Positions 17,368 to 34,570 of a stretch of 41,184 nucleotides of DNA are shown here, piece after piece. A program made the position numbers and the translations under genes. The DNA is taken from assembly GCA_040754315.1 (NCBI GenBank), contig JBFMCS010000018.1, positions 1 through 41,184 on the forward strand, given 5' to 3'. The notes below the pieces were generated by a model. The model saw only the letters and a program-made list of their open reading frames with translations. It was not told where the DNA came from and did no database searches. Source of the DNA: Bacillota bacterium. Lineage in GTDB: Bacteria; Bacillota; Sulfobacillia; DUSP01; JBFMCS01. Positions within the stretch are counted from its first letter, which is position 1. Each line of letters opens with the position of its first letter.

Positions 17368-18309
17368 CTAACACTCACGTCGTTGTTTCTCCAAAAAGAT
17401 TGCACCCAAGAAATCCAATATTATTCTGGACGCAACTTGCGGAGTAACCTCAGTCGGATCATACTGAGGAGCTACTTCCACGAAGTCAAAACCTACAACA
17501 TCACCCATTCGCGCAATACCGCGAAGTATGTCGACCACTTCATAGTAATCAAAACCGCCAGGTGAGGGTGTTCCTGTTCCTGGAGCCAGTGAAGGATCAA
17601 GTGCATCACAGTCCATAGTCACATAGTACCTTTCAGACTTGGGTATTTGGGCAAGAACATTTTCCAGTCCCTGTTCACGGAACTGCCGAACACCAAACAG
17701 TATACAACCGTGATCTCGAGCTGAATCGAAGTCTTCATGTCGACTGGAACCTGGCCCCCTAATCCCCAACTGTGCGATCCCACTTATATGCTTCATTTCG
17801 CTGGCACGACGGATCGGGCTGCCATGACCCTCAGTTACTCCGTGCCTAATATCAACAAAATCGAGATGGGCGTCTAACTGGACCAATACAAAAGGGTCCT
17901 GCCCTTCATATGCTCTAAGGACGGGTATCGTAATGGCATGGTCACCGCCGATCACCACGGGCATAGCTCCCTTGGCCAAAATCTTCCTGATCATAGTCTC
18001 CGCATTGTCAAGACACTGTCTGGGATCACCATGAATAATATCGCTATCTCCACAGTCAACCATTCTGACGCCTTTCAAGAGATACTCGTCCAGTTCGTGA
18101 TCATAGTAACCTACATCCACAAGGGAGTACAAAGTTGAGGCATTTCGCACTGCACGTGGTCCCATGCGTGCACCTGAACGATACTGGCAACCCAGGTCAT
18201 AGGGAATACCCACTATTGCCACATCAACGTCGAGTTCTTCAAAATCCGTCACCACCGGCAAACGACAGAATGATGGAATTCCCGTAAACGGCAGATTTAG
18301 TCTCTGCAA
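17368..18309 (-). CDS. agmatinase/arginase-family ureohydrolase
   Basis: A 313-aa manganese (or nickel) ureohydrolase. Ligand motifs are PVVIGGDHAITIP, LVQLDAHLDFVD and VTMDCDALDPSLAPGTGTPS, and DFVEVAPQYD near the C-terminus; these give the His/Asp residues of the binuclear metal centre. The family hydrolyses guanidino compounds to urea: agmatine, guanidinobutyrate, guanidinopropionate or guanidine. The DAHLDFVD variant (rather than DAHTD) makes the substrate open. TTG 18309 is chosen because AAAGGAAGG (18326-18318) lies eight bases upstream; the ATG at 18342 has no ribosome site and sits just behind the symporter stop. Last gene of the Lrp-peptide-symporter cassette, in lower-GC DNA. Confidence 0.88.
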   Translation of the reverse strand: MQRLNLPFTGIPSFCRLPVVTDFEELDVDVAIVGIPYDLGCQYRSGARMGPRAVRNASTLYSLVDVGYYDHELDEYLLKGVRMVDCGDSDIIHGDPRQCLDNAETMIRKILAKGAMPVVIGGDHAITIPVLRAYEGQDPFVLVQLDAHLDFVDIRHGVTEGHGSPIRRASEMKHISGIAQLGIRGPGSSRHEDFDSARDHGCILFGVRQFREQGLENVLAQIPKSERYYVTMDCDALDPSLAPGTGTPSPGGFDYYEVVDILRGIARMGDVVGFDFVEVAPQYDPTEVTPQVASRIILDFLGAIFLEKQRREC

Positions 18310-18346
18310 AAAGCGCACCTTCCTTTCTCTCATTATGGTCATTTGA

Positions 18347-19798
18347 TTATGACTTCAGCTTATCCAAGATCTCATCTGAAGGAGGTGCAGTTACGGCGCT
18401 GACTGCTATCATAACCACCAATCCTGTTACAGCACCAATACCAACGGTAACCCAAAAGTTCGTTGGCGTAAACAAGATCAAGTATGAGTATAAACAAACG
18501 CCTACAACAATTGAAGCCAGTGCCCCTGCTTTGCTTGCCTTATCCCAAAACAATCCCACGAGAAGTGGAGAAGCTACTGCAATACCCACACCCGAAAGAC
18601 CGATATTCATTATGATGAAAAGAAACTCTGGAGGTTTAGCAATAGATAGACCGAAAACTACGAGGGTGACGGCGATAATTGTTAGTCTTGTTATTAACAA
18701 TACCAGCTTATCGGGCGCAGCTTTATTGATTGTTCTACGATATATATCTTCTGACACCGCAGTACCCACTACAAGCAAAATAGAGTCGATAGTTGACATC
18801 ATCGCCGATACTATGCCAATCATCATGAAGGCAGCTATAAAGGCTGGCAGGAAATTGATGGCCATTTGGATAGTGGCATAATCAGCATCCGCCAATCCAG
18901 GCAATGCGACTCTTCCCACAAGACCGATGAAATAGTTGGAATTTATCAATGTGGCCATGAGCAGTGTGGCTATAAGAAAAGTACCCATACTCCTCTTGCC
19001 GGTATCTCTTATTGCCATAAACCTAATGCTCAGATAAGGGTTGGAAATGAATACGATGAACCAAAATATATAGCTACCAATTACTCCAGCCGGAGTGAAC
19101 ACTTCCGCGTCGAAAACACCCATTAAAGTGGGGTCAATCTGTTGAAGCTGAGCGTTGAGGCCAGATAGCCCTCCCACCCAAACGTAACAAACCCCAATCA
19201 AAACTGCGGAAAAAATTAACATAGGTATTGCTTGGATGGCATCAGTCCAAACCACCGCTCGGAACCCCCCGACTGCTACATAAAACCCTACGATAAGCGT
19301 AAAGAGCACCAAACCCACCGTTGAAGGAATTCCAAGTATTGACTCAAATAAAATCGAGGCTCCTTTGTATTGAGCCATCAAAGGAAACGTGTAAAAGATA
19401 ACAATCACGAGAGCCAAGATAACTCTTACAGCATCACTTCCATATCGCTCTCCTAGATAACTCGGGATGGTCATCGTATCCAAACGAAGGCTATACTTCC
19501 TAAGTCTACTAGTGAGAAGAAGCGCAGGGATTACCATTCCTGGTATGATCGCTATTGTAACCCAGAAAGCCGGCCACCCAATGTGATATGCCATGGCAGG
19601 TTCACCCATGTAGATTGACGCGCTGGTTGAAGATGCAATATAAGAAAACGCAATCAAGAGCGGGTGCATCGAACGACCACCCAAACCATGCTCCAGCATG
19701 CCTTTACTAGCACTCTTAGACGCAAACCACCCGATCACGAGCATTCCAACGAGATACACAGCCAAAAAAGTGAACCCCCATACCATTAATGGTGACAA
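18347..19798 (-). CDS. sodium:solute symporter (SSS family)
   Basis: A 483-aa membrane protein with about thirteen hydrophobic helices of the LeuT-like SSS fold. Typical features are the early SYIASSTSASIYMGEPAMAY (helix 2 region, Na+ site), TMTIPSYLGERYG, VAVGGFRAVVWTDAIQAIPM (the conserved GG-x3-VxxTD-x2-Q segment) and GIVSAMMSTIDSILLVVGTA in helix 9 with the second Na+ site. The closest known groups are pantothenate, proline and monocarboxylate symporters, but the substrate cannot be told. TTG 19798 has AAAGGAG nine bases upstream. It is preceded by the 32-aa membrane peptide and followed after four bases by the ureohydrolase frame, so uptake of the ureohydrolase substrate is a fair inference. 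Confidence 0.92.
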   Translation of the reverse strand: MSPLMVWGFTFLAVYLVGMLVIGWFASKSASKGMLEHGLGGRSMHPLLIAFSYIASSTSASIYMGEPAMAYHIGWPAFWVTIAIIPGMVIPALLLTSRLRKYSLRLDTMTIPSYLGERYGSDAVRVILALVIVIFYTFPLMAQYKGASILFESILGIPSTVGLVLFTLIVGFYVAVGGFRAVVWTDAIQAIPMLIFSAVLIGVCYVWVGGLSGLNAQLQQIDPTLMGVFDAEVFTPAGVIGSYIFWFIVFISNPYLSIRFMAIRDTGKRSMGTFLIATLLMATLINSNYFIGLVGRVALPGLADADYATIQMAINFLPAFIAAFMMIGIVSAMMSTIDSILLVVGTAVSEDIYRRTINKAAPDKLVLLITRLTIIAVTLVVFGLSIAKPPEFLFIIMNIGLSGVGIAVASPLLVGLFWDKASKAGALASIVVGVCLYSYLILFTPTNFWVTVGIGAVTGLVVMIAVSAVTAPPSDEILDKLKS

Positions 19799-19818
19799 TA
19801 CAATGCACTCCTTTCATC

Positions 19819-19917
19819 TCAGGCATCCTCTAAAGTTCGCAGATACCAGATGATTGCTAGGACACTAATGACAAAATGAGCTGCCAGCAACCACAATAAC
19901 AGGACATAACCAGGCAT
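19819..19917 (-). CDS. 32-residue single-helix membrane peptide beside the symporter
   Basis: ATG 19917 follows a strong GGAGGGGAGGTGTTGGGA ribosome site and opens a 32-codon frame. It encodes MPGYVLLLWLLAAHFVISVL and then AIIWYLRTLEDA: one hydrophobic helix of about 22 residues followed by a short charged tail. It ends 20 bases before the symporter start and 34 bases after the Lrp gene. Very small membrane proteins next to SSS transporters are known as accessory or stabilising subunits. This one has the right size, topology and position, although I do not recognise the exact sequence. It is easily missed by gene callers. Confidence 0.78.
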   Translation of the reverse strand: MPGYVLLLWLLAAHFVISVLAIIWYLRTLEDA

Positions 19918-19951
19918 TCCCAACACCTCCCCTCCAAATAAAGACTTGGTC

Positions 19952-20419
19952 TTAACTCTCTGCGCCTACTCCTATTTGGCCAGTTTCTTTATAGATCTTC
20001 ATGATGACGAATGTATCGGTATCAAGTATTCCTTCAACCGTCATGATTCTCTCAAGCAGAAACTCGGAAAGTCTCGATATGTCCTCGATATTGACCCTGA
20101 TGTATATATGGTACTGACCAGTTGTTATTGCAACGAATTGAACCTCCGGGAACTTGGATAAATTTCGAGCCACTTCATCTACTCTTCGCCTATCTGCTTT
20201 TATTCCTATCATGGCTGGAGCACCAAAACCAAGTGCAAAAACGTCCCCTAAAGCTGTTACTAAAATAATATTATCGTTTATCAGCCTTCTCAGTTTCTTT
20301 CGTATCGTTGCTTCCGCCAAACCGATTTCTTTAACTAACTTGGAAAGGGGAATTCTACCATCAACTTGAAGAAGTTTTATAATTTTAGCTTCATACTCAT
20401 CTATCTGTTTAAAATACAT
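19952..20419 (-). CDS. Lrp/AsnC-family transcriptional regulator
   Basis: A 155-aa protein. The N-terminal helix-turn-helix is DEYEAKIIKLLQVDGRIPLS then LVKEIGLAEATIRKKLRRL, the AsnC signature. The C-terminal RAM domain (about 65-150) includes AMIGIKADRRRVDEVARNL, FVAITTGQYHIYIRV and TVEGILDTDTFVIM, which bind amino acids and form octamers. ATG 20419 follows GGGAGGGGCAAGT. It heads the low-GC cassette, so it likely senses an amino acid or polyamine precursor and controls the symporter and ureohydrolase genes. A TAAAAT -10-like element lies about 50 bases upstream but its -35 partner is poor. Confidence 0.9.
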   Translation of the reverse strand: MYFKQIDEYEAKIIKLLQVDGRIPLSKLVKEIGLAEATIRKKLRRLINDNIILVTALGDVFALGFGAPAMIGIKADRRRVDEVARNLSKFPEVQFVAITTGQYHIYIRVNIEDISRLSEFLLERIMTVEGILDTDTFVIMKIYKETGQIGVGAES

Positions 20420-31578: not shown

Positions 31579-33186
31579 ATGGAAGACAGCATCCTTAAAG
31601 TGTTTTCCACGGCTGATTGGATCCTCGGCTTTCTAGTGGCTTACATGCTAGTTATCATTTTTCTTGGCATTTTTTATAGCCGCAAGGTACATGATTCCGA
31701 AGACCTGACCGTAGCCGGCAGGCAGTTGAGCTTTGTCTTCATGGTGCCGTCGATTGTCGCCACCTGGATCTGTGCCGGGGCCATGATGGGGGCGGCCGGT
31801 TACGCCTTCCTTTTCGGCATGCAGGGTGTTATCTTCGATCCCTGGGCGCCGGCCCTGTGCATGGTTATTAACGGCATCTTCTTCGCCTACCGCATGCGCA
31901 AGGCAAAGTACACCACCTTGACCGACTTTTTCAACCATCGCTACAGCAAGTTTACCGGCTTTCTGTACACGATTATCCAGATTCTTTCCGCCATGGCCTG
32001 GTTAGGCGGGCAGCTGGTGGCCCTCGGGATTGTCGTCTATCTGACTACAGGCTTCAGCATGGAGGTCGCGGTAATAATCGCCACTGTGGCTATTATCATC
32101 GTCACCACCTTTGGAGGCCTCTGGGCTCTCTCCCGAGTCGATATGATCGGTTTTATCCTAATAGTGGCCGGCTTAGCGATTATGTTCCCCGCAGTTATGG
32201 GTGAAGTGGGCGGCCTGGGAGAGCTGCTTAGAACCGGCGGGAACTGGGCTGAATTGCCTACCTGGGCCATGGTCCCGGTAGCCGGAGAGGAAGGGTACCT
32301 GTGGTACACCGGCCTGTTGGGGATCCTGCTTTATATCTCCGCCTGGACGGCACTCTCCCTGGGGGATGTCCCCAGCCAGGTGCTGATGCAACGGGCGCTG
32401 GCAGCCAAGAATGAGAAGACCGCCGTGGCGGGTTTTATCACCAGCGGGGTGATTTACCTTGTAGTCGGGATTATGCCGGTGATGATCGGCATAGCCATCT
32501 ATACCACGGGCATGTTGGACGGGATTCCCGTCACCGAAGCGGAGAATGTGCTGCCTTGGGCGGCCTACACATTCCTGCCGCCCTGGGCAGGTGTGCTCTT
32601 CGTCGTCTCCCTGGCGGCCGCCATAGTCAGCACCGCCGGTGATAACGCTCTCATTATCTCCACGCTGATCGGCCATAACATTTACCGCCACATCAAGCCG
32701 CAGGCAACCAATACCGAAGTGCTGAAAATTGTCCGCATCTGCATCCCTATCGTCACATTACTGGCCATGGGCATCGCCCTCTACGCGGAGACGGTTTACA
32801 AGCTGATAGTGCTTTCCGGGGGGATCCAGCTGGCCACGATTTTTGCCGCCTACGCCCTGGGCTACTTCTGGAAGAAGGCCAACGTAGCCGGCGCGATCAG
32901 CTCCTTCTTCACCGGGCTGATCTCCTGGATCATCGTCTACCGGTCCGTGCTGCCCCATACCATGGAGAACAACATGGACGTCCTGGTAGAAGGGCAAGTC
33001 TATATGCAGTGGGCTATGGACGACGCCATCTTTATCTCCCTGGTCCCGGCGGCGGCAATCAGCATCCTCACCCTGATCGTGGTTTCACTGGCCACCCAGA
33101 AAACCAACGTCCCCAGGCCGATGCGCAGCTACGATGGAGAGGATATGAGCAAAATGCCCAAGTTTTTCTGGTCAAAACAGGCATAG
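31579..33186 (+). CDS. sodium:solute symporter (SSS family), second copy
   Basis: A 535-aa membrane protein with about thirteen helices. SSS landmarks are SRKVHDSEDLTVAGRQLSF at the start, ATWICAGAMMGAAGYAFLFG (Na+ site, helix 2), LWALSRVDMIGFILIVAGLA and VVSLAAAIVSTAGDNALIIS (Na+ site, helix 9). It is not a close copy of the symporter at 18.3-19.8 kb. ATG 31579 follows AGGAGG by seven bases. The base composition is lower in GC and richer in ATT/GCG usage than the flanking chromosomal genes. It is followed by two hairpins and then the saccharopine-dehydrogenase-like gene. Amino-acid or organic-acid uptake is likely, but the substrate is not readable. Confidence 0.92.
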   Translation: MEDSILKVFSTADWILGFLVAYMLVIIFLGIFYSRKVHDSEDLTVAGRQLSFVFMVPSIVATWICAGAMMGAAGYAFLFGMQGVIFDPWAPALCMVINGIFFAYRMRKAKYTTLTDFFNHRYSKFTGFLYTIIQILSAMAWLGGQLVALGIVVYLTTGFSMEVAVIIATVAIIIVTTFGGLWALSRVDMIGFILIVAGLAIMFPAVMGEVGGLGELLRTGGNWAELPTWAMVPVAGEEGYLWYTGLLGILLYISAWTALSLGDVPSQVLMQRALAAKNEKTAVAGFITSGVIYLVVGIMPVMIGIAIYTTGMLDGIPVTEAENVLPWAAYTFLPPWAGVLFVVSLAAAIVSTAGDNALIISTLIGHNIYRHIKPQATNTEVLKIVRICIPIVTLLAMGIALYAETVYKLIVLSGGIQLATIFAAYALGYFWKKANVAGAISSFFTGLISWIIVYRSVLPHTMENNMDVLVEGQVYMQWAMDDAIFISLVPAAAISILTLIVVSLATQKTNVPRPMRSYDGEDMSKMPKFFWSKQA

Positions 33187-33198
33187 AGTTTAAATACC

Positions 33199-33232
33199 AA
33201 GGGGCGGGGGAGACACACACACCCCGCCCTTT
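33199..33232 (+). terminator. Hairpin after the symporter gene
   Basis: GGGCGGGG (33202-33209) pairs with CCCCGCCC (33222-33229), extended by G-U and A-T pairs at the base and enclosing an ACACAC loop. It lies 13 bases after the stop and ends in TTTC, so it probably terminates or stabilises the symporter message. Confidence 0.75.
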
Positions 33233-33245
33233 CAAAAAGCTCGAG

Positions 33246-33281
33246 GCTGGGAGCGTGGAACCGCTCTCCCCCGCTCCCAGC
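33246..33281. repeat. Second hairpin-forming inverted repeat
   Basis: GCTGGGAGCG (33246-33255) and CGCTCCCAGC (33272-33281) are perfect 10-bp complements with a 16-base loop. There is no T-tract after it. It sits between the symporter terminator and the next gene and may act as an attenuator or a 5' mRNA structure. Confidence 0.6.
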
Positions 33282-33388
33282 TTGTGACGACTGGGCAGAA
33301 AAGGATGTTGGGAGGGATACCTCTTCATCTAGGACTCAGCGCTTATAATCTTTGACAGAGTTAAATGTTGCGGAAAGGAGTGGCCTTT

Positions 33389-34570
33389 GTGAAAGCTCTG
33401 CTGTTGGGACTGGGCGGCGTGGGCACGGTGATCGCCAGGACCCTGGCCAAGACAAAAAGGTTTGAACAGATCGTCCTGGCCGATCTTAACGAAAAGCATA
33501 TCAACGCTTTGGCAGCGGAATTGGGCGCTGGCTTTAGCGCCCGCCGGACTGACGCGAGCAGTATGGCCGACCTGACCGAGGCGACGCGAGGCGTCGACCT
33601 GGTGATCAATGCCACCATCCCCCAGTTCAATTACAACGTGATGGACGCGGCGGTGGCCAATAAGCTTCACTACCTGGACCTGGCTTCGCACGGCCCGATC
33701 CGGCTGCCGGGACGGATTACCATCCTGGAGCAGATCGAGAAGTATGACGCCAAGTTTAAGGCGAACGACCGGGCCGCTTTCCTCTGCAGCGGCATCGACC
33801 CGGGCAGTTCGAATATCTTCGCCCGCTACCTGGCCGACCAGATGGATGAGGTGGAAGAGGTGCTGGTCCGCGACGCGGACCTGAGCGAAATAGAGGGTTA
33901 CGATTTCGCTATGGGTAGCTTTTCTCCCGATGTGGTGATCGAAGAGTGCCTGCAGCCTTACCTCAATTACGAGAACGGGGAGTTCGTCCAGGGGGTGGCC
34001 CTTTCCGATGAAGACGAATTTGACTTCCCCGCCCCGATCGGCCGGCAAAAGGTTTACTCAGTCTCGCACGAAGAGGTCGGCACTATCCCCCGTTACCTGA
34101 ACAAGCCGATCAAAACCTGCAACTTCAAGTACGCGCTCAACAGTGAGCTGGTCAACGTGCTGAAGGTGTTGAGGCTGCTCGGGCTTGATGGCACCGAGCC
34201 GGTCGAAGTAAGGGGAGTGAAGGTAGCGCCACGTGACGTGGTCACCGCCCTGCTCCCCAAACCGCTTGAGCTAAGCGGCAAATTGAAGGGCTGGCTCTGC
34301 GTCGGCACGCTGGTCCGCGGGGTCAAGGACGGCAGGAAGGTGGCCAGGTTCATGTACTCGCTCGAGTCACACGAGGAAGCGTACAGGGTGGCTAAGGCCC
34401 AGGGCACCTCGTTCCAGACCGGGGTCCCTGCCGCGCTGACGGCCGATCTATTCGCCGACGGGTTGATTGCCCTGCGTGGGGCCTTCCCGGCGGAGGCGAT
34501 CGATCCCGGGTCTTTCGTCGAGCGCCTGCCCGAGTACGGCTTGCACATCTATATCGAGGACCGGAGCTGA
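33389..34570 (+). CDS. saccharopine dehydrogenase family protein
   Basis: A 393-aa oxidoreductase. The N-terminal Rossmann fold has MKALLLGLGGVGTVIARTLA (1-20) and a strand ending IVLADLNEKH, then TRGVDLVINATIPQFN and HYLDLASHG. The middle segment FLCSGIDPGSSNIFARYLAD is the family's dimer/substrate region. Members include saccharopine dehydrogenases, lysine 6-dehydrogenase and carboxynorspermidine dehydrogenase; the choice cannot be made from motifs. The GTG at 33389 is chosen because AAAGGAG lies eight bases upstream. It shares direction and composition with the symporter before it, so it probably metabolises the imported amino acid or amine. A strong stem follows its stop. Confidence 0.88.
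   Translation: MKALLLGLGGVGTVIARTLAKTKRFEQIVLADLNEKHINALAAELGAGFSARRTDASSMADLTEATRGVDLVINATIPQFNYNVMDAAVANKLHYLDLASHGPIRLPGRITILEQIEKYDAKFKANDRAAFLCSGIDPGSSNIFARYLADQMDEVEEVLVRDADLSEIEGYDFAMGSFSPDVVIEECLQPYLNYENGEFVQGVALSDEDEFDFPAPIGRQKVYSVSHEEVGTIPRYLNKPIKTCNFKYALNSELVNVLKVLRLLGLDGTEPVEVRGVKVAPRDVVTALLPKPLELSGKLKGWLCVGTLVRGVKDGRKVARFMYSLESHEEAYRVAKAQGTSFQTGVPAALTADLFADGLIALRGAFPAEAIDPGSFVERLPEYGLHIYIEDRS

Follow-up and report, generated by a model that had tools for sequence, protein, structure and literature searches.

A putative one-helix auxiliary peptide encoded directly upstream of an SSS-family sodium:solute symporter

A frame of 32 codons plus a TGA stop, located on the minus strand at positions 19819–19917 of the window (the whole 41,184-nt stretch of DNA that was analysed), is a real gene that translates to MPGYVLLLWLLAAHFVISVLAIIWYLRTLEDA. 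With a probability of about 0.75, this gene is translated into a dedicated auxiliary subunit of the adjacent SSS-family sodium:solute symporter, with an Lrp/AsnC-family regulator and a ureohydrolase encoded in the same operon for the uptake and hydrolysis of a guanidino compound. Translation in this organism and the topology, binding, stabilisation and substrate proposed below are what we infer from the analyses that follow.

On the minus strand, the Lrp/AsnC-family regulator gene (19952–20419; PF01037 at 3.9e-16 and PF13404 at 2e-08) is followed after 34 nt by the peptide gene, after another 20 nt by the symporter gene (18347–19798; 483 aa with a TTG start; PF00474 at 8.9e-58 and TIGR00813 over its cut-off), and after a further 4 nt by an agmatinase-like ureohydrolase gene (17368–18342; TIGR01230 at 209 bits against a cut-off of 174.3; PDB 1wog, 3nip, 1gq6 and 3nio). 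The 20-nt gap between peptide and symporter bears out the earlier note, which had placed the peptide in a tight operon just before an SSS transporter. The symporter, our proposed partner of the peptide, has its own Shine-Dalgarno sequence AAAGGAG (19808–19814, minus strand) 9 nt 5′ of its TTG, while the Lrp/AsnC gene likely encodes the operon's own regulator. The four genes together form a GC island (17368–20419) of 38–48% GC versus about 59–65% on either side, and the GC3 of the peptide gene is the same as that of the symporter and ureohydrolase genes. The four-gene operon was probably acquired horizontally as one unit, and such a gain would explain why none of the close relatives carries it. 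The closest solved structures to the symporter are those of SGLT1, vSGLT and SiaT; an AlphaFold model of the symporter itself (pLDDT 40) was too poor for use and was discarded. The window also contains a second SSS gene, followed by a saccharopine/carboxynorspermidine dehydrogenase-like gene (31579–34570, plus strand); no membrane peptide was seen directly upstream of this SSS gene.

The frame of the peptide comprises 99 bases, or 33 codons counting the stop, which exactly fits 19819–19917, positions for which the earlier note gave no strand. Although an in-frame TTG and GTG are also present upstream, the ATG was taken as the start because it lines up with the peptides of relatives (see below). 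The strong ribosome site that had been claimed for it was found as a near-perfect Shine-Dalgarno sequence, GGAGGGGAGG (19926–19935, minus strand), ending 8 nt 5′ of this ATG. The single hydrophobic helix proposed earlier was likewise recovered, with a Kyte-Doolittle maximum of 2.6 (17-residue window) and an AlphaFold2 model, computed with the family alignment, that folds the peptide into one helix from residue 3 to 31 at a mean pLDDT of 94. The charged tail attributed to the peptide is present in the form of R27, E30 and D31, but the charge is only modest. The peptide is single-copy in its own genome and found no match at E<=10 in a Pfam and NCBIfam scan, and paper searches on the SSS accessory-protein name and on small SSS subunits yielded nothing directly about such a peptide.

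Counterparts of the peptide were found beside related symporters. In 60 genomes of the same class only remote homologues of the symporter were present (best 32% identity, E 1e-59), and wider searches yielded 42–45% identical homologues in one family (f69). A single-sequence scan of a genome-contig collection with the symporter returned no relative, and an alignment-based scan of this collection returned 15 named loci. The source organisms were Tissierella creatinophila, a Tissierella sp., Tissierellia, Clostridium neonatale, Veillonellaceae/Selenomonadaceae, Blautia, Eubacterium, Emergencia timonensis and one Planctomycete. The nearest symporters are 33–45% identical to that of the window, and in 19/19 of their loci (some genomes being counted twice) a one-helix peptide gene lies upstream of the SSS gene, so that the frame passed the test of conservation that had been set for it. 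These "TW" peptides share the consensus MxTWxIMLGxQAxTxxISLxxIxxxM, followed by a variable tail, and their helices align nearly gap-free; no Pfam or NCBIfam model recognised the five that were scanned. Synonymous-biased substitution, the other check asked of the frame, was seen among these relatives' peptides rather than in the window frame, whose operon has no close relative: dN/dS was 0.08–0.20 (about 0.1) in the six computable pairs, the remaining four pairs being near-identical or saturated at synonymous sites. These values indicate that the relatives' peptides are encoded by protein genes. The gap that separates peptide and symporter is anywhere between -1 and 159 nt in relatives, and between -1 and 1 nt in Tissierella-type loci. 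The expectation that Lrp and ureohydrolase genes would form a conserved context failed, as only the peptide–SSS pair is kept and the neighbours in relatives are instead PucR or sigma-54 regulators and creatininase, creatinase-like and sarcosine reductase genes. A tblastn search of plasmids with the window peptide and the C. neonatale counterpart found nothing. In a Selenomonadaceae genome the accessory peptide is duplicated: a single SSS gene is preceded by a tandem pair of related one-helix peptides, MATWEMMLGFEA... and MADWELLLGYEA... (L058 2937–3244 and L067 3177–3484).

An alignment of the window peptide itself with 16 of the peptides that precede related SSS genes needs no gaps. In an ungapped comparison anchored at Met1 it scored 20.4 against these peptides, ranking first of the 16,436 start codons in 339 kb (the next reached 9.8), whereas other SSS accessory peptides scored at most -3.6. 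Permutations that keep its hydrophobic pattern reached 20.4 in 0.2% of cases (P = 0.002). Ungapped identity was 34% to the T. creatinophila peptide and 38% to another Tissierellia peptide. The homology of the window peptide rests on this anchored comparison, since a profile of the 16 relatives built without the window peptide missed it in a genome-wide search of its own genome. A profile that included it gave E < 1e-9 in only 2 of 398 genomes, both at this type of SSS gene, with three more marginal matches (E 0.002–0.004). Both the window peptide and the TW peptides are encoded in front of an SSS gene of the TW-type clade; they are of similar length, have a single helix that is similar without gaps, and are paired with symporters that form sister clades. 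They differ in that the window peptide has G3-Y4, L7 and W9 where the TW peptides, which have not been named, have T3-W4, M7 and G9. Because T3-W4 and G9 are missing and the genome-wide profile of the other members passes it over, the window peptide is placed as a divergent sister to the TW peptides and not as a strict member.

One of the closest known accessory proteins is NCBIfam NF045580 (symporter small accessory protein, symport_access, 33 positions), whose peptides are likewise about 33–36 aa with one helix and are encoded immediately before an SSS gene in 6/6 loci, as the window peptide is at 20 nt. However, NF045580 peptides have their own consensus (MLGIPDPQIWLAYLLSVFSAVLCVVYGIVKWNSDN type) and pair with another SSS clade, and in a search of the whole genome with this model the window peptide received no score, the only match being one of 12.9 bits elsewhere (curated cut-off 35 bits). 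TIGR03647 (SSS small subunit, Na_symport_sm) also describes a small membrane protein encoded beside SSS genes, and such subunits adjoin SSS genes in genomes of the same class, but the model is longer (77 positions) and is absent from this genome. TIGR03647 proteins have two helices and are partnered with TIGR03648-type symporters. The window peptide gave no match at E<=10 to the Pfam SSS partners DUF3311, DUF485 and DUF997. Compared by sequence, it is a new variety of the known one-helix type of SSS accessory peptide. The earlier suggestion of a new subfamily is supported by the 19/19 loci, the purifying selection in relatives, the matching to transporter clade described below, and the lack of a match in Pfam and NCBIfam, NF045580 included.

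A further analogue is the human protein MAP17 (PDZK1IP1), a single-TM auxiliary subunit of SGLT2/SGLT1 that is needed for the stability and surface level of SGLT2, whose activity it greatly enhances and against whose TM13 its helix packs (PMC10803289). The window peptide would, like MAP17, be a single-TM partner of an SSS/SLC5-family transporter, but MAP17 is larger, belongs to animals and is not operon-encoded; the analogy is one of mechanism only, and no sequence relation is claimed.

In a tree of 60 SSS proteins the symporter of the window was sister to 16 others with a support of 99. The type of upstream peptide, labelled by the analyst from the sequences, tracked the transporter clade in this tree with 15 changes versus a shuffled mean of 37.5, and 0/200 shuffles were as low. 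Other SSS clades carry at least three different types of two-helix small ORF upstream (L011, L030, L043 and L047; L003, L006, L039 and L040; L033 and L044), and neither of the two examples scanned matched a Pfam or NCBIfam model above its cut-off. A tentative generalisation, which we rate at slightly under even odds, would be that one-helix subunits are general and clade-matched across prokaryotic SSS transporters, each clade having its own peptide family, with SGLT–MAP17 as one case of a widespread design and the present family as the one that serves a clade of creatine/guanidino-compound transporters. Another SSS gene of the same genome (C56:17156–18607, minus strand; L031, region G000:C56:16000–20500) contains three in-frame TAG codons and no TAA or TGA, with one TAG at the conserved Trp of AVAWTD. 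The peptide encoded upstream of it, also of one helix, stops at a TAG that is in frame with the SSS gene, so that reading through the amber codon would yield a peptide–transporter fusion. PylS (C43:59336–60058) and a tRNA-Pyl(CUA) are encoded in the genome. TAG terminates about 40% of the long frames here, so that this SSS gene may instead be a pseudogene.

We weighed three other explanations of the short frame. The least probable is that it is a spurious ORF, as might be suspected from a length of just 32 codons in an operon that has no close relative. When upstream ORFs were sought by similar criteria (22–60 codons, a Shine-Dalgarno sequence, a hydrophobic core and an end near the next start), 5 of the 9 SSS genes of the genome had such a peptide ORF. 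The background rate was 2 of 185 for the remaining genes of >=220 aa within 339 kb of the same genome (Fisher P 1e-6), and both of these cases seem to be the C-terminal portions of larger genes. This enrichment, together with the first rank of the window peptide in likeness to its counterparts, strongly disfavours a chance origin, which is excluded for practical purposes. By the criteria used, several SSS genes in the sample were without an upstream membrane peptide, indicating that such a subunit is not universal.

It is also unlikely that the frame acts as a regulatory leader, of which the translation rather than the product would set symporter expression via translational coupling or attenuation. 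Its shortness, its strong ribosome site and its proximity to the symporter (20 nt here, down to -1 to 1 nt in Tissierella-type loci) would suit such a role, but the amino-acid sequence is under selection in relatives, whose peptides keep a fixed N-terminal motif, and the range of spacing up to 159 nt makes translational coupling hardly plausible; moreover, an Rfam scan of the window gave no match and no terminator-like site was found between peptide and symporter. A similarly low probability is given to a free-standing membrane peptide that merely rides in the operon, be it type I toxin-like or a modulator of some other membrane protein, for example a sensor. Many small membrane peptides are of this size and hydrophobicity, but the counterparts are bound to one SSS clade, across Bacillota and a Planctomycete, while their other neighbours vary, and every strong match in the 398 genomes lay beside an SSS gene of this type. 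The peptide is most likely a stabilising auxiliary subunit of the symporter, by analogy with NF045580 peptides or MAP17.

The neighbouring genes offer hints to the cargo of the transporter. The T. creatinophila symporter adjoins sarcosine reductase-type genes (GrdG/GrdF-like, below exact-subtype cut-offs), a creatinase-like M24 enzyme is encoded beside the symporter in three Tissierellia loci (one of the three was scanned), and the C. neonatale symporter has a creatininase and a cytosine-deaminase-like enzyme as neighbours. Creatinine and creatine both support growth of T. creatinophila (PMC5364220). The probable substrates of the symporter clade are creatine, creatinine or related compounds, while the glycyl-radical-enzyme and proline-racemase families beside the deeper, Emergencia-type branch indicate other small amino-acid-like substrates. 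The ureohydrolase of the window is closest to agmatinase, guanidinopropionase, proclavaminate amidinohydrolase and guanidinobutyrase. Given this enzyme and the creatininase, creatinase-like and sarcosine reductase neighbours in relatives, the cargo of the window symporter is probably a guanidino compound or an N-methyl amino acid, with a guanidino compound as our best guess from the neighbour genes.

As an auxiliary subunit, the peptide would insert into the membrane as a single helix, probably with its N-terminus outside and its C-terminal end inside, an orientation suggested by the positive charges near the C-terminal end in most TW members. Its helix would pack on the outer surface of the symporter and might stabilise it or aid its folding, like MAP17 on TM13 of SGLT2. 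A test for a helical stripe of conserved positions gave no significant result (P 0.10). Regulator, peptide, symporter and ureohydrolase would together form an operon by which a guanidino compound is taken up and hydrolysed.

SSS symporters have mostly been studied and expressed as lone proteins. Should this clade depend on a partner of 30 residues, a size that annotation easily skips, heterologous assays run without the peptide may fail. Peptide–transporter pairs are now named for Tissierella creatinophila, Clostridium neonatale and Emergencia timonensis, and the finding offers a route to small-protein families that are missing from Pfam and NCBIfam.
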